A DNA stretch of 64,000 nt from contig OU744447.1 of NCBI GenBank assembly GCA_916610825.1, positions 22,698,962-22,762,961 on the forward strand. The letters are read 5' to 3'. This DNA is from Haliclystus octoradiatus (Eukaryota > Cnidaria > Staurozoa > Stauromedusae > Haliclystidae). The notes beneath the pieces are model-generated. The model was not told the origin of the DNA and did not search any database. It saw only the letters and a program-made list of their open reading frames with translations. How positions within the stretch are numbered: the first letter of the stretch is position 1; each line of letters starts with the position of its first letter. The translations under genes and the position numbers were made by a program. Positions 13,507 to 60,730 of this stretch are shown in pieces.

Positions 13507-15399
13507 TCTGGGAGGCCTGCAATTGAAATTCAAACTTGGAAATATTCTTCACAGTTTGATAATAAAAACAATGCATGGGTATAGGTCAATAGAGTCTTTT
13601 GCCTCCAAGCAAGTAAAATACATATGTAGCCACAAGCTAGCTCTGATATAGACTGAGTGATATGATTAATAACCTAACTTACTGACTTAATAATTTAGCT
13701 ATATTAGGCAATGCCCTCGTTAAAATAATCAACCGAACATAGCACATTGCTCATCATCGTCATTTATTCAGAATCCTATACATAACCTTTGAGCAGCATT
13801 TAATTTCAAGGTATCAACATAAATTTTAAATTCATCTTCTAGGAAGGCCGATAATATGTGTGGAGCAGATCAGACTAACAGTGCCTTGGTACCATTTTGT
13901 TGAATACCTCAATTACATTAAACGGCAGTTCTAATAAATTGCAAATGTGATTGTGGAATAAACAGCATTGTAATCAAGAACTAACTTTGCTCAGTGATTA
14001 GATCAAATAAAACAAGGCTGACATAAATAATTCAAAAGTTATAAAATCTCAAACAAGCGTTACCATACACTGTAGTAGGCAAATAATCCAACTGCTTTGG
14101 CTGATAATAAACATAAGAAATTAGAACTACAGCACAATATTGGTTCTTATTGAATTAGATTAAATATTTCTTTGTGATGAAGTAAACTTGATATCTTGGC
14201 CTGGTTTATAATATATAAAGCTTGTGTTTACAAGAAGCTTGATGGCTGTATCGGCTATATCTCGTCAGACAATAAAGGCATATGAATAAAAACAATATCA
14301 CAACTAGATATGATATTGAAGTTTGTATGAAAACATGTAAACTCAATCAACATCTGTTTTCCAGCTAGAATTTGTAATAGCATTATCATTTTCAATTCAT
14401 ATTGAGGGCAGCAAGTACCTTCCTTATAGAAATTTGTGATAAAGAAATAGACCGAAAAATAAAACTACGTCAACAAACTTGATTATTCTGATTTACGAAT
14501 TATATTTGTTATTATGAATTATTCTGTTTTCTTTAGGCGGGGGGGAAATGTGGTAAATTAAATCAAGATCCTCATTATTACTAAGTCAAAACACTATGAT
14601 TTGAAATTAAATACGTAACAAGAAAAGTGTAGAAATCCATACAACGATGATAATTTCATTTTGTTCTGATTCAGAATATGAATAATGTCCTTGTTTGTTT
14701 TGACGACTGAAATGAAACAGAAATCCGACATCCCAAGGAAACGAGTCACCGAAATAAATATGAAACATGAATGTCGTGATGGGAAAACGTGCCGTTACTA
14801 TACACTATATTTGTGTTTATTAGATAGTAGATGAAAACAGGCTAGTTGTCAATATATATGACCATACGTCAATGTAATAACGGTTCTGTTATGAAATAAA
14901 TGTAACAATTGGCATTCATTGGACAAAGGTAGCCTTATAAACTCAAATACGGTTTAAAATAACAAGTTCGCTAAAGAAAATATTAGCCACATTTGTAGCG
15001 CAAGATGAACGCAAGAGCGCAAGATAAGGTTTAAAAAGCGACAGCATTTGAAAAAGGTGAGCAAAAAGAAAGTTTACGGGTAGAAATATCAAAGCACGTA
15101 GACCAATACACGTGCAGGGTGGGAAAAGACACCCAACTGCTAACCATGACGGCGATGATTTTAGTTCAAAGAAATAATACAGAATAAACATTCAACATCA
15201 CAGCATTTGTAACCATGTCCACTAACATAAATAATACATTATATATCATGATATCTTATGTAGGAAAATGGACTTCATTTCTTTATGTATTGAAATTGGG
15301 AAAGTAATGGAACGATATTGAACTGTTTGAGCATTCATTTCTCGAAATGTTAAAATGAAAACATCGTTTGTAAAGTTCAAGCTACAAAATATACTTTAC

Positions 15400-24779: not shown

Positions 24780-26129
24780 TTATTGAAATATATTATTGGC
24801 ATCCTCATCGTCGCTATGAATCGTATGTCCACGACCTGGAATGTCTGTTAAAATGTCTACCTTGTATGAATGAACTTTCGTGAAATCATCTTGCTGTAAT
24901 AAATCGTTAACTATTTTTAAAGAATTATATTCTGGGTAATAGAGTCTCTTGAATGATTCTAAAAGGCTTTGTTCACCATGTTCACTGGCATTATCTTCAA
25001 ATACGTTCAACTTAGTCATAGATTCATCAAATTCAGCATACGAAATTCGCTGCGAGGAAAATCTGTTAAAACGAACCCTGACGAACTCCTCGTCGTATTT
25101 TGGCGAGTAACGATAATGGACATCTAAATCACATGAAGGGATTGATGTTTCCTTCACGATGAAGCTCATTAATTCTTTTTCTTCTTGAATTTCTTTAGGG
25201 ATAGTACAAATTAGCTTAATGTAATCATGTGATTTGCATGGTAATATTTTACATAATTGAAAAAAATAACGATCGAGGTAATGCAACCTAAGATTTAATC
25301 CGTATTTTGAAAAATCGGATTCAGGATTATACCAGTTATGGATTGTTACTGAGCATTGCTTAGCCTGCAAACACTTGAGCAAGGGCAAAATACCGGTGTC
25401 GCCAGAGAATATATGGACTTCAGAATTAGACGGTATACTCTCTCCAAACACACACATTTCAGTCAAGGCTTTTTTTGTGCTTCCGTTGTCATGACTACCA
25501 ACAAAAAAATGTCGGTTGATTGATTTGTTTTTTTCTTTGTTATTCTCAATACAACGATAGACAAACCAACGGCGTAGTAGGCTTAATTCACGTTTATGTA
25601 TACTAGAATCATTCAATTCTAGTAGGGAACTTTTCTCTTCTTTTTTAACTTTTGAATTTGATACGGTACCAAAAGCATGCACAGAGCTATCGACAGAAAG
25701 AAGTCCAAGACACCAGCGAATCATTCTCTTCCATAATATTGTTGCCACCAGTCCATCTTTTGCTTTCACTCTGTCTTCCAGTCCCATCGCTTTCATTTCA
25801 TTATTCAAGTCTTTTAGATCTTGAGTTTCTTGGAAATCTTTGAAGGGCTCATGTTGCCAACCAAATCTTGCATATAATTGTTGTTCGACAGTATCACGAA
25901 TAAAACAGAAGGCAGGAGCATTATGTTCCTCATCTAACTCCAATGAAGGCCATTTTGAAATGTCTCTCTTAGAATTCAAGAAGTCGATAGCACCATCTCT
26001 GATACTATTAATATCGAGAAGAACAAACATTTTTCCAGAGCGGCTAGAAACTGATGCAAGGCGATGGGAAAAATTATGACCAATGTCCACACAAGTACAC
26101 AAGCATAGCTGCGTCGGTAACATAGACAT
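24780..26129 (-). CDS. NYN/PIN-like domain protein, single exon
   Basis: Uninterrupted 449-codon frame read from the ATG at 26129-26127. In-frame ATGs also occur at 26123 and about 26030; an upstream GTG is unlikely to serve. No family hit comes to mind for the whole protein. Two segments resemble an NYN/LabA-type PIN fold: MFVLLDINSIRDGAI near the N-terminus (hydrophobic strand, then D-x-N), and about 230 residues later VHIFSGDTGILPLLKCLQ (strand, then S-G-D, then helix). The latter matches the '(V/I)SGD-x-D-(F/I)-x-P' motif, with T where a second Asp is usual. Such proteins are often metal-dependent RNases. The missing Asp and the long charged insert between the motifs make activity uncertain. 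The C-terminal 80 residues are acidic. AATAAA (minus) is at 24745-24740, 35 bases past the stop. Confidence 0.5.
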   Translation of the reverse strand: MSMLPTQLCLCTCVDIGHNFSHRLASVSSRSGKMFVLLDINSIRDGAIDFLNSKRDISKWPSLELDEEHNAPAFCFIRDTVEQQLYARFGWQHEPFKDFQETQDLKDLNNEMKAMGLEDRVKAKDGLVATILWKRMIRWCLGLLSVDSSVHAFGTVSNSKVKKEEKSSLLELNDSSIHKRELSLLRRWFVYRCIENNKEKNKSINRHFFVGSHDNGSTKKALTEMCVFGESIPSNSEVHIFSGDTGILPLLKCLQAKQCSVTIHNWYNPESDFSKYGLNLRLHYLDRYFFQLCKILPCKSHDYIKLICTIPKEIQEEKELMSFIVKETSIPSCDLDVHYRYSPKYDEEFVRVRFNRFSSQRISYAEFDESMTKLNVFEDNASEHGEQSLLESFKRLYYPEYNSLKIVNDLLQQDDFTKVHSYKVDILTDIPGRGHTIHSDDEDANNIFQ

Positions 26130-26222
26130 AATAGATATAGACTGCTGATGGCGTTCGAAAACGGGCTTAAAACGTAGCACCTATGGGGATCCATAATGGC
26201 TGACACATGCTCCCAAAGTGGC
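26118..26222. repeat. Inverted repeat, left copy, at the start of the NYN-like gene
   Basis: Contains CATAGACATAATAGATATAG and, further right, ATGGCTGACACATGCTCCCAA. Both are found in reverse complement at 26950-27047 with scattered differences. The copy includes the NYN gene's start codons (ATGTCTATG on the minus strand). About 730 bp of AT-rich sequence separate the copies. Confidence 0.65.
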
Positions 26223-26949
26223 GGTAAAAGCAGTGTTTTGACCCGATATTGTTGCTAGAAAATAAAAGAATAGATGAGCCGGATTATTTCGAGCTACTTT
26301 TAAAGCAACTAAATATGATTGTATTTAACAGGTTTGTTGTGCAGCACTCAATTTCGAATCAAATCCGCTTAATTATTTTATCAAATTTTCACTGAAATAT
26401 TCCAATTTTGCAAGTAGATATATCGCCGCTTTTGTAACAATAAGACATCAAAATTTCAGAGTTTGCTCAGATTTAACATTTATTAATCATCCAAGCTGTA
26501 TTTACATGACAAGGTGCATGTTTACTGCTGGTTACAGCAAAACACAGGACGCAGAATGAGTGTAGAAAAGTTGATATTGAAACAATGACAAACAAATTGC
26601 AATAATGCTACGAAAAATATTCAAATTTAATTCACCAAATATCCAAATATTTTACACCCCATAGTGATAAAAGTTATAAAGTCTAAGATTGATGAAGATA
26701 GCCACAAATTAAGCCTCATAACCAGCAGTACCATCGCAAAACAAGCGTAGCGGATACCAATTAATATCAAAATATGCAAATTTTTATCATAATCAATGTT
26801 TCCGTATCATTAAAACCATATTAAAAATGTTCAAAAGCAAGACAAATAGATATATGCAGCGATTTAAATCAATTCAAGCACTTTGTGTCTACTTCAAATA
26901 CCAAATTGTATTGGAATTTAGCCTTTTGCGGTCGGTTTACAACATACAA

Positions 26950-27047
26950 CTGCAACATTTGGGCGCATGTGTCTACCATTTTGGCTGCCCATGAGTGCCA
27001 CGCGTCACGTGACCCCATCAGCGGTCTATATCTATTATGTCTATGGT
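26950..27047. repeat. Inverted repeat, right copy, partner of 26118-26222
   Basis: Reverse-complement match to the left copy: 'TATATCTATTATGTCTATGG' and TTTGGGCGCATGTGTCTACC correspond to the minus strand of 26118-26222. On the plus strand it reproduces ATGTCTATG, but the frame after it stops within about 20 codons. It abuts the large inverted-repeat arm that begins at 27048. Confidence 0.65.
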
Positions 27048-35403: not shown

Positions 35404-35480
35404 CATTTTGTGAGGCGATGAGGAATCAAACCCCGGTCTGCCACAGGGACTACATGCACTCTACTATTGAGCTACCAGTC
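35404..35480 (-). pseudogene. tRNA-like sequence (tRNA pseudogene or SINE head)
   Basis: Minus strand has an A-box-like TAGCTCAATAGTAGAG (35474-35459) and a B-box-like GGTTTGATTCC (35432-35422) at tRNA spacing. The T-arm can mostly pair, but the acceptor halves do not, and no clean anticodon stem forms. A functional tRNA is therefore unlikely. Confidence 0.45.
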
Positions 35481-36440
35481 TACATTGATCAATTTATCTA
35501 CCTCTCATAGCTGGCTGCTATACACAGATTTCAACTGTATCTAGCCTATTTCTAAACTTCAACTCATTATTTTGATATTTGCTTGAAGAACATCAATTTT
35601 CATAAATGTATGATGATATTTTTAGTAAAAGAGTACACACACGGAAGTAGGCCCTACACGAAATATAAACCATCCCTCTATTGTTTCATGATTTCTGCCA
35701 AGGCATGTTAGGGGGATATTTGCTATTGAAAAGTTAACATTTCTCTTTGCTGATAACTAGGCTTAATCTACAAAACATATGTCCGCGTACAGTCGAGCTC
35801 TCAGCCTCTCGTATGTCTAACATAATTTTCTAGGAGGTAGTTTAATATCACGAGACATCCTGATGAAGATTACCGATGTTGCTTAAATTTTAATTACCTT
35901 GACCGATCACCTCAGAATGCTGTCTCTTTCAACTTTGTAGGGGCCTACCCTTTATAAATCAAAAATTAGCTTAGCCTATAATCTTGTAGATTGTCCATTA
36001 GTTATTTGTTGTGTAAGTATCTCATATTGATGCATATACACACATGTTGATACATATTAATTAATAATTATTATAGGCAAGGTGTAAAGGATTATGACAA
36101 AGTAATCGTCCCAAATGCCACAATTGTCCTGTTTCTGCAAGTGGTTAAGAATCCATTTATTAGCTGTGCTATATCCACGGTGGAACACTTTATCAGAGGA
36201 TTTTGTTCTGCAAGTAGCCTACATTTCTATGATTTTAAACAATATTACAAACATTTACTCTGGCTCAGTGTTGCAAAGTCTACAATACAAATAGATAAGT
36301 TTACTATTTCAGATAAGTTGTTTTTAAAAACAATAACGATTAGTTTTCAACTGAATTGAGATACTGTGTGTAGTGGAGACCAAAAGCTCTTCCATAATAG
36401 TCGCTCATTAATGTTAGCTTTTTTGTAATTTAATAAATAC
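35481..36440. other. Noncoding stretch
   Basis: AT-rich sequence with no reading frame, repeat or RNA I can support. Confidence 0.45.
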
Positions 36441-47223: not shown

Positions 47224-50200
47224 TTATTTGCTGTACTCCTCAAAAGATCCATTGGATTTCCACACACATTTCAGTGTGACATGAAATTCAGCCATTTTAT
47301 GTCCAAACATTTTCTAGAAATTAAATATGAAAACGAAATCACAAAGATGCTAAGAATGGAAATATAAATTGCAATCAATCAAGACCTGATTATGTCATGT
47401 CGCGGCATAATCAAACACCTGCAATTTTTCAAAATGCTGGCGGTTTGCAACTTGAACGAGTGATTCACTCGTTCCTAGGTCCTTTGGGACTTTAGGGTTT
47501 GGATCACGTGATAACAACCCGGTCGAGTTTAAACATTTTCTTGTTTCATCAGCTCTCGTCGGTTGTGGCAAAACTGTTCTGTACATTTTTATACTAACAG
47601 CGATGTCTGAACTTACTAGTATTCTGCATTGTTCAGGCGTTAAAATGTCTCCCTCAGAGCAAACATGGTATGGTTCTGATAGTGTGACAATACCTAGAAA
47701 AATAAATAGTATCTGATTGACACATGCAATGAGTACGGGTGTTTGTGTTCTGGCACGGTGCAGTAATCTGATTCTGAAAAAGGATGCCCTGATTTTACTC
47801 GAGGTTCAATAGAAGTTACTGCTTTTTGTTCAACCAGTTTTTTCTTTCTTCTGTTGTTTTATTAAGCAATTCGTTACTCGCGTTGTTGGAGTGGATTGGA
47901 TCCCTCCCCAATAATAGCAAGTTGTGACGTGAAGTTGCAAAGTAAAATGATAGATTTGGTTTTGATATCAAGAGTACAGAACCAAAAAACAGGGAATACC
48001 CATATAAAAACATAGATCAAAACACAGTGATTCGTAGCAGAATGGCTACTCCCCTGTAAAGGCCAATCATCCTCCCTAAACAGTGGATTAATATTGAAAT
48101 GATAATATTTGAATTGTACAGATAATGACAGAAAATAAACCATTTGAATTTGGTGGCGGGCAAGCGCAATTTTTAGAGGGATAAGCTCAGATGGCAAGCA
48201 GCCGAACTTCAGATCGCATCATATCTGATCGACTGTGGTTCAAATCCCCCTAAGGTCAACTCAGCCTTGACTTTATCTGAAACATCAAATGAGTACCTTC
48301 TAAGGATGGCGGATGGAATGGTCCAGAGGGAACTGCATTGTGAGTAGCTGCGGCGCATTGACAATCCAGACCTATCTGCCAAGAAATCTGTTGAAATTGA
48401 CTTGCCGTGTCGCGGCTGAGATCTAAGGAGTGTTTAAAATCATTGCTCTCAGCAAAAAAAGCCACTCGTCTAGAAATAGAGGAGTGGTACGGGTGCCTTT
48501 GGTAGGGCGACATTGTCTACACTACTTTTTTAAGCGCAGTGTTTGTTAGCTCTAAAAATACCAAAACACAAAACTTCCATTACAAACTTACTACTACTAT
48601 TTTATGGTCTCAAACACAGTAAAATATTGTAAATATCAAAAGGAATGTTGCAATATTGCAGTGTGTCTACATCCACATTCCAGTACAAGTCCTCTATTCC
48701 ATTTGGTCCGAAGAAAAAACTCAAGTTGGATTCAAACCTCTATTATATAACTTAACTATTTGTATATATCTATTAACAAATATCAAACTAAATTACCTTT
48801 CTTTAAACAAGATGGCATTCCGAGTAGGCGAAGTTGTGGTTCCATCGAATGAGGAAAACGTTCAGAGTCAAGTGGTCCTATCAACAGACGAAGAATACCA
48901 ATTGATTAATACCAAATCAACAAAATCCTATAAATTTATTGGCGGCCATAGGAAAGCATAACATAGCATACAATTATGATACTGTAATTACAAAATCTGA
49001 TACTTAAACGTGGGTTCCAACGAAGTTATAGAGAAGCAATTCTATAGATATGTCAAAGTGAAACCAAAACCATTCAAAAACATATTTGATACATTGCAAG
49101 AGCAACAGTTCCATACTCCTCAAATGCCGTGGTGATCGGTAACAGTAAACAGCTGTGCTAAATAAAAATATTACTAATACCAATCTTGAGGCCTGAGCTC
49201 AGGCAAGGGGCCGCGAAGCGGCCCAGACAGCCAGCCCAGATCCGCGCATACGGAGTCAAAATTCAACTAAGGATACTGGAGACCAAATTTCAGCCAATAG
49301 TTTCTCCTGTGCGCTTTACAAAGATGGTGTCTGTGTCGCAAGAATGTTCCACTAGTTATTAGCATCGTGGTTCTTTTTTTATCAAGATCGATGATGTATT
49401 TTATTTTCTATGAAATTTAAACTTTTCCTTTTCTGTGATACCCTTTGTTCTACTCTTTTGTCTTTCAGAGTTTTTACAGTCACGTGGTCTTGCGATTTTG
49501 TCCGCTCGCTGGTGTGTTGTGCTTCCGGGCACGTAGTTCTAGCGCTGTCACATTTACACATGGTTGTTAATTGTTACCCTCATTATTGTTGCTTGCTGAT
49601 TGCACCTATTGTTGTTTTTTATTCACTATGTTATGCTCTGTTAAATTCCTCAAGTTTAATCATTTTATGCACAAGGAAGTAGTGCTTTCAATCAACATTG
49701 GACGAGATTGTTTCTGCCTAAGTATGGAATCATTCTGTTAGGTCGATAGTGATTTTTTGCACTGAAAGGCGGTTAAGAGGAAATGGGCTTTAAACTAGAG
49801 AGTTGTGCCTAATGGACTACATGTTTGACACCAACTATTGACTGTAAAATACTTTCTGGGGTTCAAAGATCTTCCTGACGGATGGGAAAATATCTCTGCT
49901 GTTTGTTTGTTTCTTTGCGTTTGTTCAATTCAACGTTAATTTTATTCTTGACAATCCTGCTTCAAGCCTCAATGAAAAGACCAAAATTCTATGGGGTGGT
50001 GGGGCTGATAAGATTGGGGAACACTGATATCGCCAGGCAGCACTTCAGAGAGGTTGTGCTCTGCATCAATAAATACATAAATACATCGTGATCAATTCAA
50101 TCAAGCTATCAGGTCAACCCAGTCTGTGAACAGTTATTTTACTAAATACTTATCAGGTTATAACTTTGTGGGTGGGCATATATTGCTGTGTGACATTCTT

Positions 50201-53200
50201 ATAATGAAGTTACTTTACTGGTTTTTCCGTACGCAAACACAAACTTGATTGAAAAAATGGCATTCAAACGAAGTTTTTCATCAAATAAAGTTGTTTAATC
50301 GTGTTGAATAGAGAGATATGCTTCGGAACTGGACTATGGATTATGGGAGTATCCTACAACACGATTATCCTACAATTATCCTACAATTATATCCCTGCTA
50401 CTGGTTCAAAATGGACACAAAGGAGCAATATCACTGAAATGCATAAATAAATTGAGGGCTTGTTTACAGCACACCGCTATTTTCCATAGGCAATCATTAT
50501 TATTTATTTAGCAGGTGATTTACAGATGCACTAGGAGCCAATGCATTAACAGTATAAACAATGTTGTATTGTGTTTTCTCTCTTGAGTATTTTCTTTGGA
50601 AAGTTTCTTTGTCCAAGTGTGCATTTTGAGGATGAATCTTGATCTGACTAAGTTGAATCACATTCGAATGAAAATAAAAATTTGTGGCTGCTTTGAATAA
50701 TGATATGGAATGAAGATTATTTAAAACTGATATTTCATTGCCTGCTTTTATTCAAATATCGTGTTTGTGTATAATGTATATGAAGATATAAATCTAATTT
50801 CAATTCAAAACATTGCCAAAATAAAAAAGCAAACTTCTATTGAAAATAAGTTAATCATTACATCCATACCTTCTTCAATATCGAATGCAAATAATGCCGT
50901 GTTACCAGCACGTGCAAAATCATTTTCCGAGAATTCCAAGAACCATCTGGTTGAAAAAAATTAAGGAAAAGATTATTTTCAAATCAACATATAACATGTC
51001 AACTTGTAATCATAAGATGTGTATGGAGTTAATTAGAGTTTGCAGACTTCGAATGTGAAAAAACTCAAATAAAAACATTTGACTTCAGTTTGGATTTGAA
51101 AATTGAATCTAGTTTATCAACACAAAAGTTGATAAACTTATTGTTTGAGAATTATTGTTAGTTATTGGTAGCCTAAAATTGATTACGTATAATTACATTT
51201 TTAAATAGAAAGAAGGCAGTGATTTTGCTTCAATTTGCTCATGTTTTGCATTAAAAAATGTTCTGGCAAGAGGGTTGTGTCCTATGTAAATTGACCCATC
51301 AACTCTAACGGGTTAAAAGTGCACAAGTAAGCAAAACATTTAACACATGTCCTGGTGGCAGAAGTCATGAAAATGATGAAACGGTGACAATGATTTCTTA
51401 ATTTGGACGCATAAATGTATCAGCAGAGATCGATCTCAATTCTCGCAACTAAGTCAAAATTTGAGTGTCCAAGTCAGCCATGCCCACACCTTTAAGACAC
51501 GTAACACATTTTATGCATAGAATTTATTGAGAAATACCTGAAATACAAGGGCGTTTAGTAGTTAAAAAATCGCTTTTATGTCAAAAAAGGCTTGAGACAT
51601 TTTTGAGAGAAAACTCAATTCGATTACAAAAAACCTTGTATCTCATGTATTTTCTGATAAATCATATTGACTCGAAGCAAAATGGGGTTCCAAGGGTCAG
51701 ACATGTCTGATTTTGGCAATAGAAAATTTCAATTTTGTGTAAAGGAGGATATGATTTTTCAATTCTGACTTCACCTTTTTCCTATAACAGTAGTAAGGTC
51801 TCTTATTATTCCAACTGTTGTTCTGAGTTTTGAAAAAAGCGAATGATCAAAATTAGCATACTTTCTACATTAAATATCTCCGGTTACAGGCGTCTAAACG
51901 AAGCACTCATTTTCACTATTCTTTCTCATTTAGCATCAGTTGCCTAAATCTGTGTTAAAATCTTTTGGTGCCATGTGCGTAGTCATAACTGAAATATTTA
52001 GAGTGTGTTTCTTCGAGATCATATCCATTTAGAAATTGTCTTCCAATGAACGTGGGAAAGAAACAGATTTAATGTCGGCATCCATCAGATTGAGATGTAC
52101 AACTATCAGTACAGACAATATCAGAGATACCTTTTCACAATTGCAAATATATACATCTAATTGACCTACACATCATAGTTTCGGGCCAGGGCATATAATA
52201 TAGCCTATCTATGCCAAGTGTAATAATTTCAAAATGATACAACGTTATTGGCATGTAATCATCAAAATTATGATTCTAATTTAGAACAAAGGAGAAATGG
52301 TATGGTTTCAACAAGCAACTGGTGACTTCAGTTGTTAGGCAAAATGAATCTCAGAATATCCAGGGCACTTCATCTTTAAGTACTAGGTAGGAATAAATTT
52401 ATGAAGCAGAATTTTTGTTATCAAATCATCTAAATTTTGCTCTAATTAGTTTGGCTTTGCAGACATTTTTTATTTATTCCTTCAAAAATAATAATTCAGG
52501 ACGTTTTTTGCTTCTTATAGTAGACTCACTAATACAATAAACTACCAGTTACTTACTTTTCAACTTTCTTTCTTTTTTCATTTGTAAACATTAATCCAAC
52601 ATTTCCCTGTAACCTCTGTAAAACAAAATAACTATTAATACAATTAAAGTGATGCATTAACTTCACTGACTCTGGTTATATGGGGTTTATTCTAATTTCT
52701 AATATCAGTGTTTCAAGCAATAATTTGACAACAGGGTATAACTAACTAACATTATACTTCATAGCACAAGCACAACTAGTGCGTTTGCTAATAGACATAG
52801 GCTACTTAAAGTACAGTCAGTGTAGGGGCCTACGAGATAATCGGGATCCTAATAGGATCCCGGAAGTTTGAGCTGCATTGATCAAAAACCAGAAGTTTGT
52901 AATTTTTTGTTTTAAGACAAATTCAATAGGATTTCTATAGACATGCCTAACTTCGAAAAAACTGTTTTAATTTGAAAGCTAGATCCCAATATTTTGTTTT
53001 TTGATTGAATCCGTAGTTATGTCTTTTCGAGGATGTTGTGTGTAGCAAAAGTTAGTTTCTGTCTCAGTTAATGTCTCTTGGTTGATATGTTGTTGGAAAA
53101 AATTCAAAACATTTTTTTCGGATAATTTAGGATCCCGGAAGGTGAATTTTTTTTAGGACCCTGAGTGCAGTGCTTGATTTAGCTAGTACCACCACTACGA

Positions 53201-56200
53201 AATCTTCTCACCTCTTAAAAACAAAGATTATTAAAGCAGAATAATCAAGTATTTAGTTAGCCGGGTAAGTAACATTATTTTAGCTATAAAGGTAGAAAAC
53301 ATTTCTTCTTCTTAATTTTATTTATTGCTCTATAATAAAGGGTTACCACATACTTGCCATGTTTGTAGGCCTATTCTTATCTACTAAACGAGAAAATGTT
53401 GGGAGACACGAGTGAAGCGCTAAAAAATCACGAGCTCCGAGCGAGTGATTTTTAGCTTCCCGAGTGTCTCTCAACTTTTTCGAGTTTAGTAAATATGAAT
53501 ACAAACATTTGCAAGCATGTGGTAATCCTTTTCTAAAATAAAACAAATGTCGGAATCTCATTCGACGGCGAATTTCCAATTCATGAATTCACAAGTTAAA
53601 ATTCAATTTCAATTCATATTCAAACCAAGCAAAGAGAATCCCACAACAAGATAGATATTGTCGAATAAAGAAAGACATATATAAGAACGTCTGTAATATA
53701 AGTGGTACAATAGTTCTTTAGCAAATTAATGCAGTAATTGTTATTTAAATTTTAGGTTTACCTTGAAATAGCGTAGCCTATAATTGTCTTTCATTCTGTG
53801 TTTTTATTTTGCATGTTACACGACCAATAACTCATTTACCACGCTTTTCAATAAATGTAAACATCTTGAGCTAAGTAACGTTTTGTAAATCGTTGCCATT
53901 ATTGAGATATTTATTGGATTGTTATCAAAAAGTTATAAATTCTGTATTTTATCACAGATCAAACTATTTGAAGCTTGCTGTTTTTCCAGGTTTTCGGAGC
54001 CATGTTTTACCCTAGGATTTCATGCACGCTCTTTCGACCAGTCAGATCGCAGAAAACCTTCGTGATATTTTAGAATGTGAATTTAACCTCTAATGACCAT
54101 CGTAAACAGAAATATCAACCATTGTCAATTGTTTATTAGTTCGCAGCTCACCTTACTAATTTGATGTAAGTTATCTTTGTATTCTTCTTCTTGGGTTTTA
54201 CCAAGTGCAACAGACATAACCTTATTCTTACCAAAGAAAAATCTAGAACAAAATTGATATAAAAACTATAGGAAAAACATAACTTTTCATAATCGATAAT
54301 CAGGATAGCTCTTTCTACACTGAATAGTAATTGCTATTTAATTTTGGTTGAAGATAGGCCTATTAAGAAACTAAAATACACCCCAAACAATAAGTTACGT
54401 AAAATCTGAAACCTTTGATGAATTGATGTAGTAATTGACTGTCCAAATTATACTATTAATGAGATAGTTCTTTGAACTATCTCACAAAATAATCATAATT
54501 TATAATCAAGACAAGTATTAAGGTGCTCCAAAGATAGAAATAAGCAATTCTCAATTAGCCCCAATGGTCTAAAAACATTACACGTAACATTTCATTACAA
54601 TAGGATAACGTTTGCCAGCAGAGCATCTCATTTTAAATATTTATCGTAGCGGGCTATTTGTCTGACACTGTCTCTTTACCAAAGCGATATGCGTTAAATC
54701 AGACAGTTTGCCTTTGTGCGTGATTATTTTCATACAGTTCAATGAGTTTGTTTGGTTCAAACTGGTTCAATCAGTTTGTTGTGATGGGAAAAAGTCATTC
54801 ATCCATCCCAGTTCTATTTATGTTAACAATGTTTACAATATCATAGATGAGATTGAATAATAAATTTATAATAATGGCAACAATAGTAATAACATGCAGG
54901 GCTCTTTATGAACGGCCCTTTACAATAACCATGCATGTGCAATTTTTATTCATCATCCAGGATCGCTTTACAATCAAGTTACAATCTACTTTGAACGCAT
55001 TTACAAAATAATAAGGTAGTAGGCTATTATTGCTTATTATGGCGTCGTGGTTAGCTCTTCGACACTATTATGCCAAGGCATCTGCCGATATTTCTATCAT
55101 ACAGTGTTACCCGCTTATGTGTAATTCGGATAAGTGAAAGTCGCGCTTATCTGCAACCTGGCTTTGAAACCTGTTAATCAATTTTCTGGTCAAGTCCTTG
55201 GTAAACGATTTTGGATAACTACAAATTTGGATAAATGCAATGAAAACCGTTGGCAATTTTGACTTGCACTTAAGCTGGTTACACTGTATAACACACAACT
55301 GAAACTTTTAGAAAATGTGCTTCTTCGAGATCATATCCATTTAGAAATTGTCTTCCAATGAACGTGGGAAAGAAACAGATTTAATGTTGGCATCCATCAG
55401 ATTGAGATGTACAACTATCAGTACAGACAATATCAGAGATGCCTTTTACAATCCCAAATATATAGGTCTAACGGGCAGGGTCCTATAAAATATTTTGGAT
55501 TCTAATTATTGATTCCAAAATTTCTTGGGTTGATTTCATCATACAAACGGTTTACAGTTTCTATTTGGAGGTGATTGCCCGCTTATTTCCATAAAAAGTA
55601 AATAAAACTGCACCTTTTCATTTATCTCATCAACCCTGCTAATGGGCCTAGGAGGCATAGAATATAGCCTACCTACTCAAAGTTTAATAAATTACAAAGT
55701 GCTACTTTATTGGCATGCACCCATCAGAATTATGATTCAAATTCAAAACAAAGGAGACATGGTAGGCCTATTGATTCAACCAGAAACAGATATTTGGGAA
55801 AATAAAGTTCAGAATTTTGATATCATACAGTTATGGGCCCTGGAATTCAAGCGACGTTCAATTGTAAGTTCTTCTTGAAAACAGCGAAAACAAACAATTC
55901 TTTCCATTTTTTTTTTACAAATGGTTTAAGCAATTAAACAATATTAAATTAATGATGAAGATGATGAATGGATAACGAAAATTACATTTCTGACATGAAT
56001 ACACAACCACTTTTGAAATTTTTACTTCTTTCTGGATTTTGTAAGACTCACAGATATTCTGACATTTATACAAAATAAAGGTAACTGCAGCGCCACTGTC
56101 ATATCCGTTATTGCTAACATCTGGGTGTTAGTATTGATGAAAACTTACTTGCTGTCTTTCCATTGGGCTCTCACATCTTTGATTTTTGAATTTCGCATGT

Positions 56201-59200
56201 GATCAACAGAAAATATGTAAATGCTACTGAAGTCATCAACAGTTTTTCTCAACTGTAAAATAGAAAGAAAGAAGAGATACGTTACTTGGATAATTCAACG
56301 ATTCTTAAATGTAGCAAAAATGGAAACATACAGTTTCTGGTCAGGGTACACAAGGATGGAGAAAGTGGAGTCCAAAATATTAGAAATGAAATAAAAATTA
56401 ATTTGAATAAAACAGTCAACTGATACTCAGTCGATAATCATACTAGGCCTACTACTGATATCCATATATTTTGAATTCCTAATACCAAATACTCAGTGTT
56501 AATAATTCACATTTTTAAACAACCCTAGGGCGATTCCATCAGAAGTGAAACCAAAAATTTTACAAGCGTCATAAATAAAGCAAGGAATTCAGACAAAAAT
56601 CATTTGTTTTCTCCAAAATAGATACTTTTACCATCATTATATATATGTTTGATTGAGATTATAGACTTCGATTTGGAGAAAATTAATGTTTTAGAGAGAG
56701 CGTCGAGTTGGCCGCTCGTGAATTTATGAGAACAACAACTAAAACATGAAATTTTGCGTTTCTCTGTTCATGATTTTCTAACAAAAATTACATCAATCAA
56801 TATAAATTCACTTGTTTTGTATTATTAAGTAGTAGAAATAAAGAATAATGAGTGTATTTTACCTTGAAATTATATAAATGTTTCGATCACTTCGGGCCGC
56901 TGTCAGTCAGACACGAAAAAGTCCTAAATGTTTTGTTTACTCCACAGCGTGAAACTTGATCGCTAAATCCTTTCGTATGCAAAGTAGAAAATAGCTCATT
57001 TGCATATTTGGCGGGAAATATTGCTCTTTTCTTCAACGTCATCCTTTAAATCAGCGTGTCTGACTGACAGAAAATATTCATACGGACAGTTTCGACTTAA
57101 GCGCAACACTCGGCATGTCAAAGCTAATGCCGTAATGATCATATAATCAAAGAAGCCGTGTGACCGCCTACCCGTTGTTTTGGACACTTCACACCACGTG
57201 GCAATTTGAGGTCGCTGTCGTCAATATTTAGTCATGCGTGTTGACTGTTTTATCGCATGCGAAATGGAAATGGCAGTTCAACTTGGCCTTGTTGTTTAGA
57301 ATATTATCTGTATGCGTGCTGCATTTTGAACAAAAAGAACAACCAATTTACATTACATGATGATTATAGATTTGGAAGGAAATATATCAAAGTTTTAATA
57401 AAAGTGTATTACTTGTGTTTTATGTCAAGTTATGTCAGTCAGACACAAACTGCTTCGGAGAGGTTAGTCAGACACGAAATATTGTCAGTCAGACACGAGA
57501 AACATTTGTTTATTGCCGTATATATTTTGAAAGTATTTAATAAAATGAATAATATTTGTATAGTATAGTAAGGTATAGTATCTTAAGAACATGATGAGAG
57601 TGATTTTATTCTTCTTTATGCCAACACTTCGCAGAAATCTACAAATGTTCATCTCCAATTGGCAAAATGGCGAGCGTACGTGTCAGTCAGACACGGACCT
57701 TAAACTTGCTGTAGTTTATTTATGTTTTGAGTTATTGTGAATATTTTTACTTTGTGGGGATGTTTTTGCCACTCTTTATTTGTAAGAAATAATAATTGAT
57801 CAAACTTTGCGTGGATGTTGATGCCCTAATCGAAAATATCTTCCGATATGTCAGTCAGACACGATGGAACCACCCCCTAGGCAGTTCGTGTTCATCTATC
57901 CCTTCTAGTATCCAATCATTAGTTTACTGAAAAATCACATTGTCAATATTCACATCCTGTTGAATTCGTTAATTTGGTTGAAAATACACTATTGAAATCA
58001 TCAATATCTTCAGCATTCCAGCCATCTGATCAATCTTGTGCAATGTATATCACAAAGGAAACTCATCCCCGTTGGAAGAATATAAGCAAACACAACACAC
58101 TTAGGTTAAAATATTCAAAAGTTGAGTGTGTTTCTTCTAGATCATATCCATTCAGAAATTGTTTTCCAATGAACATGGGAAAGAATCAGATTTAATCTCG
58201 GCATCCATCAGATTGAAATGTAGGCTAGGCCTACAACTATCAGAATAGACAATATCAAAGATGCCTTGTTACAATTGCAAATAGTGACTTTGCAAACATA
58301 CCTATTAAATGGTGTAGGTCTACAGTACAGGGCTTGACAAAAGGTTCAGCCTTTTAGAATCCTGTAGCATTTTAACAATCAATGTTCTTCTGAATTTGCT
58401 CTAGTTGCCCGGAGTCTAGAATTCCTACTTTTGGCGGACCTCGACCGTGTAATGTGCATCTAATCATTGACCTGATTTAGATTTTAGAACCAATCCAATC
58501 TTACCTTATCTATTAATGATTTCTTCAATGTCATTCCTTTCTTATCAGTCTTTGTCAGTGAAACTGAAACAACCATTATTTGATTAGTTTAGTTGTCATA
58601 TATTAAACATTAGTAATATTGTTTATAAAGGATTTGAGGAGAAAAAATTATGCATGCACGTTTTTTTTATCCGCAAGGGGCATGTCGTCCTGGTTATCCT
58701 AGACTACAACAAGGCATTAAAGTAATAAATTGATAAAATTGAGTTCTTAGTACATAGTTTTCTGGGCATATTAATTTCATCTGCAATATAGCAGATAAAT
58801 GTTTGTGACAGAGATTTAAACGTGTTCTGTGGATAAGTGTCAAATGCTTCAGTTTTAACTGACCAAGCGTGCAAAGGCCATGAAACATAGCAGGATGATA
58901 CTGCAAGTTTAATCGATTGGTCATATAAATAGATAGACGGATAGACATTTTCATTTCAATCAAGTAAAGAGGAACGTTAGGCTACCTAATAGAAATACAG
59001 TTCTGAATTGACATAAATTTACAAGATTGGTGTTGTTAGGCTATAACTTTTACATTTAATGATTAGATTGTGCTTCTTCGAGATCATATTCATATAGAAA
59101 TTGTTTTCAAATGAACGTGGGAAAGAAACAGATTAATGTCGGCATCCATCAGATTGAGATGTACAACTATCAGTATAGACAATATCAGAGATGCCATGCA

Positions 59201-59611
59201 AAACTGTTTAGAGTAGATCAGGATTGTAGACTTGTTAAGTTAAGGTTAATAAACAATTTCACCGACATTTTTCTGTGGTTGCCTCTTGCCTGGTTGCTCT
59301 TGCTGCAATAGGCTACTGCCCCTGGCCCTGAAGCAGCAAATTTTGTTGTTGAAATATATCTGTTAAACCTAGGGTTTCTCAAACTTTCTTATTCGATATT
59401 GTTTCCTTCCTAAATTTTGAAATAATGGATAGTTTTATAATTGTAGGCCTAATTTACTTAGGCTGCCCTGAAATCAAATTTCCAATTCCAATCTCTTTGG
59501 GTCTTTAATTTCGGAGTCAATCCAGGATAAAGGAAGGGATTAACGTAGCATACTCTATATGTTTACGCTCCAATATTACTTACCGATTTTATTCCTCTTG
59601 GATTTTGGCAT
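47224..59611 (-). CDS. MRTO4: mRNA turnover protein 4 homologue, ribosome assembly factor
   Basis: Nine exons join in frame: 59611-59584, 58563-58505, 56252-56149, 54242-54152, 52615-52557, 50946-50870, 48877-48797, 47693-47617, 47313-47224 (221 residues; human about 239). Landmarks: [19 protein letters not shown] at the start; [105 protein letters not shown]. This is the P0-like (L10 family) protein that binds pre-60S rRNA in the nucleolus and is later exchanged for P0 at the stalk. The long acidic tail of the human protein is shorter here. All junctions are GT-AG with matching phase. Introns 1, 2, 3 and 5 each carry a predicted H/ACA RNA. Intron 2 also holds a transposon and intron 4 a foldback element. 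AATAAA (minus) is at 47217-47212. Confidence 0.94.
48170..48540 (+). mobile_element. tRNA-derived SINE
   Basis: Pol III promoter boxes at tRNA spacing: A box 'ATAAGCTCAGATGGCAAG' (48181-48198) and a perfect B box GGTTCAAATCC (48238-48248). Immediately downstream, GGTCAACTCAGCCTT and AAATGAGTACC resemble the conserved body seen in several invertebrate SINE families. The 3' limit is approximate. It lies in MRTO4 intron 7, antisense to the gene. Confidence 0.6.
49140..50095. other. Probable unclassified repeat in MRTO4 intron 6
   Basis: Begins with a GC-rich hairpin (GGGCCGCGAAGCGGCCC near 49208) foreign to the local composition. It ends with a repetitive ATAAATACATAAATACAT tail at about 50068-50085, like a retroelement tail. 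A short plus frame ([20 protein letters not shown]) lies between. I cannot name the element. Confidence 0.3.
52001..52131 (-). ncRNA. Predicted H/ACA snoRNA copy 1, MRTO4 intron 5
   Basis: 131 nt, read on the host strand. Hairpin 1 closes with GGTATC (5') and GATGCC (52082-52077). Its apical stem is TGTAC/GTACA. H box ACATTA (ANANNA) is at 52075-52070. Hairpin 2 closes with TGTTTCTT/AAGAAACA, with an upper stem TTCATT/AATGGA. ACA (52006-52004) is followed by three bases. Architecture, length and host gene type all fit an H/ACA guide RNA. Its target uridine is unknown. Confidence 0.75.
53337..53534. mobile_element. Foldback element, about 200 bp, in MRTO4 intron 4
   Basis: Nearly complete palindrome. 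Outer arms GGTTACCACATACTTGC and its counterpart near 53510-53530; inner arms ACTAAACGAGAAA and GGGAGACACGAGTGAAGC with their reverse complements; the loop is near 'CGAGCTCCGAG' (about 53430). The transcript could form a hairpin of about 90 bp. Confidence 0.7.
54461..54483. repeat. Short perfect hairpin in MRTO4 intron 3/exon 4 flank
   Basis: GAGATAGTTC, a TTT loop, then GAACTATCTC: a 10-bp perfect stem, 219 bases upstream (host sense) of exon 4. Function unknown. Confidence 0.5.
55313..55443 (-). ncRNA. Predicted H/ACA snoRNA copy 2, MRTO4 intron 3
   Basis: 131 nt and almost identical to copy 1. Closing stem GGCATC/GATGCC, H box ACATTA. Hairpin 2 closes with GTTTCTT/AAGAAGC (one U-A replaced by U-G). 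ACA at 55318-55316 is followed by three bases. Same strand as MRTO4. Confidence 0.75.
56523..57884. mobile_element. Transposon-like element with repeated TGTCAGTCAGACACG motif
   Basis: Imperfect terminal inverted repeats: CCCTAGGGCGATTCCATC at the left against CCTAGGGGGTGGTTCCATC (reverse complement of the right end). Inside are seven occurrences, in both orientations, of a motif based on GTCAGTCAGACACG, at about 56905, 57055 (reverse), 57433, 57461, 57486, 57683 and 57850. No transposase is visible. Multiple subterminal copies of a motif suggest transposase-binding sites. MRTO4 intron 2. Confidence 0.55.
58124..58265 (-). ncRNA. Predicted H/ACA snoRNA copy 3, MRTO4 intron 2
   Basis: 142 nt. 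Closing stem GGCATC/GATGCC, H box AGATTA (still ANANNA), ACA at 58129-58127 followed by three bases. The apex of hairpin 1 differs: it carries a longer stem TGTAGGC/GCCTACA that includes an insertion of about ten bases. The hairpin 2 basal stem has one mismatch. This is the most diverged copy. Confidence 0.68.
59066..59195 (-). ncRNA. Predicted H/ACA snoRNA copy 4, MRTO4 intron 1
   Basis: 130 nt. Closing stem GGCATC/GATGCC, H box ACATTA. Hairpin 2 upper stem TTCAT/ATGAA, where copy 1 has TTCAT/ATGGA; this converts a G-U pair to A-U and keeps the helix. ACA at 59071-59069 is followed by three bases. Confidence 0.74.
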
Positions 59612-60730
59612 GATGGCAATATGTTAACAAAATCCTGTCCAATACAGTAGTGGAATAGCAATGTAAGGTATACCAACGTTTTCAATCCACGCGTGAAATA
59701 AATCACTCTTTTTTCATGGCCTCCTTTTATAAATTGTTTAGATTAATTGTGAAAAGGAGGTACCGCATATGTTAGTGCAATTGTTTTCTTTTCGCATTTT
59801 CAATTTGGAGGCAGACTGCTTAAATTATAAAATATTTTTCACACGATTCGTTACTGCTTGTCACAGACCATTGGTTTGATACAATATTGTGATATAAAAA
59901 TGGTTAAATATGCAAAGCTCAATAGGGATCAAGTTTCCGTATACATTGATGAATTCGAAAGAGGAGGTAGGAAACTAACTTATTAGGCGGCTTTAGGCCT
60001 ACTGGTATTGCTTACTAGTAGTACTAGTATCACTTACTAGTAGTAGTAAGTATTTTAGGCAAAAAATCCAAGTCTAGCAGCCTGGGCTGGTAATATATGA
60101 TTTCCTTGCTCCTCAATAAACCCGATGTCACCATTTGCAAACCTAGCTCAAATCTAATCCTAATTGTTCAATTCATTTGGCTGCGTTCATAAACTAGCGG
60201 CTTGCTAGGCTACTAGGCCTATAGCAGATAGAAGTCTGGAATAATAGGCACCTGCCGGGCTATAGACGGTATAGACCTGCGCCATATGCCCCTGTACTTC
60301 ACTTTACCTGCGGCCGCTTCTTATGTAGGGCGCAGCGAAATAGCGGGTCTTGTGGAGCTAGGCTAACTGCGCTACAGTACAATACAGCCCAGACGGTTTC
60401 CAGCTGAAAATCTGTCTGTTGCTGAAAGGGGAAATAACGCAGTGAAGCCCCATCTTCTAGTGGGTTTTGGTGGAAATTTTTGAATGCAAAGCTTTTCAAG
60501 AAGATTTTAAGTGACCTCGTAATTTTGTGCGCAAAGCCCATTCTCATCAAATTGTACGCCAACTCATTTGATGCGGACAGTCACTCTAGCCTACTCTTAA
60601 AACAAAGAGTAGGCCTACTAAAGCAGACTAATCAAATATTAAGCACGTTAAGTAGGCCTACTTTTTTTTGTCGCATAGGAGGAATAACCTTTATTTTAAT
60701 TATCATTTATTTAGTACGGTGGCCCAGAGG
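59612..60730. other. MRTO4 upstream region
   Basis: Noncoding. On the minus strand TATAAAAGG occurs about 120 bases upstream of the MRTO4 ATG (near 59737-59729) and could be a TATA box. Short ACTAGTA-type palindromes occur at about 60010-60050. I see no other gene. Confidence 0.35.

Follow-up and report, generated by a model that had tools for sequence, protein, structure and literature searches.

Four probable paralogous box H/ACA snoRNAs in introns of the MRTO4 gene of Haliclystus octoradiatus

What is the sequence of 130–142 nucleotides (nt) that recurs in four introns of one gene, MRTO4, of Haliclystus octoradiatus (Cnidaria; Staurozoa), and how did it come to be there four times? The gene lies in a 64-kb stretch of DNA (64,000 nt; positions 22,698,962 to 22,762,961 of contig OU744447.1, assembly GCA_916610825.1, 262 Mb in 33 contigs), which was analysed as a whole and is called the window below; all positions are counted from its first letter. 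One copy of the sequence is found in each of introns 1, 2, 3 and 5, always on the minus strand, which is also the host strand. We conclude that the four sequences are very probably paralogous intron-encoded box H/ACA small nucleolar RNAs (snoRNAs), because they have the hairpin and box anatomy of this class, the conserved block ends at or just past the ACA, three of the four copies ranked high in a blind descriptor scan, four copies are found in the genome, and the RNA has changed slowly compared with its flank. A preliminary description of the window, made from the letters alone, had already proposed an H/ACA identity, which is supported by the anatomy, the copy number, the host, the scan rank and the slower change relative to the flank.

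The intron-1 copy occupies positions 59066–59195 (box H ACATTA at 59134–59139, ACA at 59069–59071), the intron-3 copy 55313–55443 (ACATTA at 55382–55387, ACA at 55316–55318) and the intron-5 copy 52001–52131 (ACATTA at 52070–52075, ACA at 52004–52006), while the most diverged copy, in intron 2, occupies 58124–58265 (box H AGATTA at 58193–58198, ACA at 58127–58129). Each RNA reads as hairpin 1, an ANANNA box (AGATTA for intron 2, ACATTA for the others), hairpin 2, an ACA and three further bases. The alignable block spans GG.ATC to about the ACA in all four, and the ACA with its three bases stands at the end of the alignable sequence, which would be the 3' end of the RNA. A covariance model built from the four copies re-detected all of them within 1 nt in the window (default filters), with a single further match at an expectation value (E) of 4.2, and found no copy in MRTO4 introns 4 and 6. 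DNA searches of the animal's own 262-Mb genome returned four matches with the intron-3 copy as query and likewise four with the intron-2 copy at E up to 10, all within MRTO4, these counts being lower bounds. Alignment and covariance model confirmed the four copies, their coordinates, their single orientation and their placement once per intron as given in the preliminary description, and the two boxes that it had read were present in every copy. The hundreds of genomic copies that would mark a plain short interspersed element (SINE) were not seen, the four copies found being all in one gene.

Folding was consistent with this anatomy to different degrees among the copies. The minimum-energy folds of the intron-3 and intron-5 copies are two plain hairpins joined by a single-stranded hinge; in the unconstrained fold of the intron-3 copy the tail pairs with the hinge. 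Hairpin 1 of the intron-1 copy is 1.1 kcal/mol better in a branched form (−13.5 versus −12.4 kcal/mol for the plain one), and that of the intron-2 copy is branched around an 11-nt insert, with an A-A mismatch near the base of hairpin 2. Folding z-scores on the host strand were −1.37, −2.56, −2.47 and −1.44 for the copies of introns 1, 2, 3 and 5, respectively, compared with +0.57 to −1.41 on the opposite strand. When the H/ACA structure was laid over the alignment, 150 of 155 cells formed a pair; the five broken cells belong to the intron-1 copy (apex of hairpin 1, upper stem of hairpin 2) and the intron-2 copy (apex of hairpin 1, base of hairpin 2).

A descriptor of the form hairpin, box H, hairpin, ACA plus three bases was run blindly over both strands of the window and gave seven matches. 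The intron-3 copy ranked first (−29.1 kcal/mol), the intron-5 copy second (−27.1) and the intron-1 copy joint fourth (−23.9, equal to a match at 35406–35519), and the ends of all three coincided with those given in the preliminary description. Third was a sequence at 13622–13751 (−24.8) in which no known feature was recognised, and the two weakest matches lie at 36127–36277 and 56610–56740. Four dinucleotide-shuffled windows, scanned on one strand each, gave six matches with a best score of −23.4; the intron-3 and intron-5 copies are therefore clear of this control and the intron-1 copy is barely above it. The match at 35406–35519, on the minus strand, contains tRNA-like A-box and B-box text by eye and is probably a tRNA-derived SINE; ARAGORN reported no tRNA gene in the window.

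The copies of introns 3 and 5 are the most alike, and they share a duplicated 5' flank (55654–55764 for intron 3, homologous to 52190–52302 for intron 5, both on the minus strand). Of the 114 aligned columns of this flank, 92 are identical, 18 are mismatches and 4 are gaps, whereas the two RNAs differ by five substitutions in 131 ungapped positions, three of them before the end of the ACA. The RNA has thus diverged 4.3-fold less than the flank when mismatches only are counted (18 in 110 flank positions; Fisher p = 1.5e-3), 5.1-fold less when all columns are counted (p = 1.4e-4), and 7.0-fold less when the RNA core is set against the flank mismatches (p = 1.4e-4). Judged from this comparison the four RNAs look as if they are under selection, although gene conversion between copies could likewise slow divergence. 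Upstream flanks were more similar than shuffles for introns 2 and 5 and for introns 3 and 5 (0 of 300 shuffles each) and weakly so for introns 2 and 3 (27 of 300), and no pair that includes intron 1 rose above its 300 shuffles. Downstream flanks were weakly alike for introns 1 and 5 (8 of 300) and introns 3 and 5 (6 of 300), the other four pairs showing no such likeness, and runs of A in the 30 bases after each copy are never longer than four. Most simply, the copies are explained by DNA duplication within MRTO4. Between the two routes named in the preliminary description, duplication is favoured, and retroposition is disfavoured for three copies because A-tails are missing and flanks are shared.

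The intron-2 copy stands apart. At the apex of hairpin 1 it reads GTA-GGCC-TA-GCC-TAC in place of the GTAC of its three paralogs, the 11-nt insert lying at 58223–58233 on the minus strand and containing TA-GGCC-TA and TA-GCC-TA. Besides this insert and a broken hairpin-2 pair it has two changed pocket positions, and it may be decaying or changing. The remodelled apex that had been assigned earlier to a "copy 3" does exist and is due to the insert; it sits in the copy at 58124–58265. TA-GGCC-TA and TA-GCC-TA look like excision footprints of a TA-targeting DNA transposon, and if they are, the altered shape of the apex would be accounted for. A search of the window for an element whose TAGG...CCTA ends match well was negative, and among the literature matches listed there was no report of such TA-GGCC-TA footprints.

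Related words and elements were seen elsewhere in the sequence. The palindrome TAGGCCTA is present at 12 sites in the window (0.31 expected), 10 of them within 53366–60660, and the 262-Mb genome has 3690 sites of GTAGGCCTAC, compared with 18 for a reversed control. Of the words in which two TAs enclose three or four G/C, TAGCCTA stands out with 27 occurrences (next word, 4) and TAGGCCTA with 12 (next word, 3). A long imperfect inverted repeat in MRTO4 intron 4 (53337–53531; 75% over 205 columns) resembles a miniature inverted-repeat transposable element, and one of its two arms carries six additional bases, TAGGCC, at a TA; the same six bases are extra, again at a TA, in one member of the homologous pair 55763 and 52302. 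All three homologous pairs examined, the 11 bases of the intron-2 apex included, have extra bases at a TA. Farther away, a TA-bounded segment of about 920 bp (26123–27043), in which 28 of 30 terminal inverted bases match, is a candidate Tc1/mariner-like insertion.

The host gene was modelled as seven joined exons on the minus strand, separated by six GT-AG introns: the coding part of exon 1 (59584–59611), exon 2 (58505–58563), exon 3 (56149–56252), exon 4 (54152–54242), exon 5 (52557–52615), exon 6 (50870–50946) and exon 7 (48797–48877), all placed by the sequence and a match of the spliced translation. The model covers exons 1–7, exons beyond the seventh being left out. Its 167-residue translation matches Ribosomal_L10 in Pfam, and its top match among solved chains is "mRNA turnover protein 4 homolog" (E = 5.8e-66, the best of 45 listed), the best-scoring P0 protein reaching E = 1.7e-6 against the same translation; the spliced translation thereby confirmed the earlier naming of the host as MRTO4. 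MRTO4 is a ribosome-assembly gene acting in 60S assembly. Among the open-access papers listed for this gene, none dealt with MRTO4 or Mrt4 as a snoRNA host.

Does the RNA belong to a known family? A relaxed Rfam scan of 51900–59300 gave no match over any copy, and relaxed scans of the intron-1, intron-3 and intron-5 copies singly gave sub-threshold matches only, with E from 0.28 upward. Those for the intron-3 copy include SNORA41 on the opposite strand, SCARNA14 and TtnuHACA8; the last spans exactly 55313–55443 from end to end at chance level (15.1 bits, cut-off 50, E 4.1), in one of the three copies scanned singly. The preliminary description had recognised no snoRNA family, and the covariance search, with no family above its cut-off, is consistent with this. 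The CAB box of small Cajal body-specific RNAs (scaRNAs) is a UGAG-like motif in a hairpin loop, and a scan for the exact UGAG found it nowhere in the four RNAs. SCARNA14 (RF00582), which we take to be U100, aligned weakly over its full model with the intron-3 copy (16.1 bits, far below the cut-off of 40, E 1.5, chance level); it was dropped as a relative, since the scans of the intron-1 and intron-5 copies did not list it. U100 is named in a review as the guide for U2 position 7 (PMC7960923). Paralogs residing in different introns of a single host are known from a chicken survey, which describes cis-duplication and only six duplicated H/ACA snoRNAs, giving 13 paralogs (PMC2653536). Like the copies described here, those cis-duplicates are intron-encoded paralogs; MRTO4 differs in holding four H/ACA copies. 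The intron-to-intron arrangement of paralogs is already well known in animals.

According to PMC8522698, the distance from a guide pocket to the box H or ACA that follows it is about 15 ± 1 nt. In the folds of the intron-3 and intron-5 copies, 13 nt were counted by hand from the upper stem to each box, which places the target at about 14 and therefore within this rule; shifted pocket geometries place it at 15 and 16. The pockets of all four copies were scored, with a shuffled-guide control for those of intron 3, against small nuclear RNAs (snRNAs) of the same genome (U2, U4, U5 and U6, U1 being left out) and against ribosomal RNAs (rRNAs), namely a degenerate copy of the animal's own ribosomal DNA (rDNA), its own 28S fragments, contaminant eukaryotic rDNA (five contigs used out of eight detected in public bacterial assemblies) and human 18S and 28S, which in their conserved parts could be aligned with the retrieved rRNAs. 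The intron-3 pockets were also scored in the shifted geometries, again with shuffled guides as control. The best pairing of the intron-1, intron-3 and intron-5 copies was with stem IIa of U2 snRNA through pocket 1 (score 26; 7 and 8 pairs with one mismatch per side), at a position that we take to be U55 in human numbering, and the best-scoring target of the intron-2 copy was an 18S site instead. A cluster of U2 genes (C2:14.58–14.83 Mb of the own-genome assembly G000, loci L005–L012) holds 46 matches of equal score, which are all those scored. The U2 copy that was read has AUCAGCUUAAUAUC as stem IIa, with a C where human U2 presumably has a U. U93 targets the same stretch of U2, stem IIa, and is given as the guide for human position 54, no pseudouridine being shown at 55 in that passage of the review (PMC7960923), whereas pocket 1 here points, not significantly, at U55. 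In the assembly no intact rDNA turned up, the matches being a single degenerate copy and several 28S fragments; the sole 5.8S match found lies at the degenerate 18S/28S-like locus (L014/L015, G000 C5:18.94 Mb), which by eye is interrupted by a retroelement-like stretch.

Several of the results weigh against the identification as H/ACA snoRNAs. No Rfam family reaches its own threshold in the window. Four of the seven descriptor matches are not copies, and they reach −24.8 kcal/mol; the intron-2 copy, with its 11-nt insert and broken pair, was missed. The scan permits branched hairpins, which the intron-1 match uses, and the best unbranched form of that copy (−12.4 + −10.4 = −22.8) falls under the best shuffle (−23.4). 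The intron-1 and intron-5 copies reach z-scores of just −1.4, and in unconstrained folds of the intron-1, intron-3 and intron-5 copies the first A of the ACA is paired, lengthening the hairpin-2 stem by one pair. The matching of pockets to rRNA and snRNA that the preliminary description had suggested singled out no guide target: the score of the best pairing (U2) was equalled by 64 of 200 shuffled intron-3 guide sets. Finally, none of the 39 pairs changes on both sides across the four copies, so the pairing evidence consists of preservation through one-sided changes, not of covariation; the earlier statement that differences keep pairs holds for most of the cells and fails for the five broken ones.

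Other explanations draw on some of the same observations. Insertion of a SINE or a snoRNA-derived retroposon into several MRTO4 introns would account for four near-identical blocks, and for intron 1, where the homologous stretch and the RNA nearly coincide and the upstream flank is unlike the others; the genome search, with no copy found outside MRTO4, nevertheless largely refutes it, the 30 bases after each copy contain at most four A in a row, and the upstream flanks match for introns 2 and 5 and introns 3 and 5 beyond every shuffle, all of which makes it very unlikely. Equally little credit can be given to conserved intronic DNA or a pre-mRNA element (a splicing regulator, for instance, or an enhancer) that merely resembles an H/ACA RNA: the copies are indeed intronic and conserved, with no significant target and no two-sided pair changes, but two hairpins, an ANANNA hinge, an ACA ending the conserved block and the top scan rank argue against it.

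It is somewhat less improbable, though still unlikely, that a former snoRNA has left four dead copies, which yield no functional RNA, as the insert and broken pairs of the intron-2 copy and the lack of a clear target might suggest; against this, the RNA has diverged 4–7 times less than the duplicated flank between introns 3 and 5, and the boxes are intact in all four copies. An account that goes further, to which we attach a similarly low probability, is that an H/ACA family without an Rfam model was amplified in a 60S-assembly gene, that its pocket 1 guides an unusual pseudouridine of U2 stem IIa (U54 or U55), tying the modification of a splicing RNA to a ribosome-assembly transcript, and that transposon footprints are turning the intron-2 copy into a new variant.

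Taking the four sequences as paralogous H/ACA snoRNAs, each putative snoRNA would probably be spliced out with its MRTO4 intron, after which, by analogy with other members of the class, the excised intron would be trimmed to the hairpin-H-hairpin-ACA unit, and the RNA would associate with dyskerin, NOP10, NHP2 and GAR1 to guide pseudouridylation. The MRTO4 copies leave the general picture of snoRNA origins unchanged. They add an H/ACA family unmatched by any Rfam model and provide a clear case of intron-to-intron snoRNA duplication within a single host, and their unequal divergence permits a test of selection on redundant guide copies.

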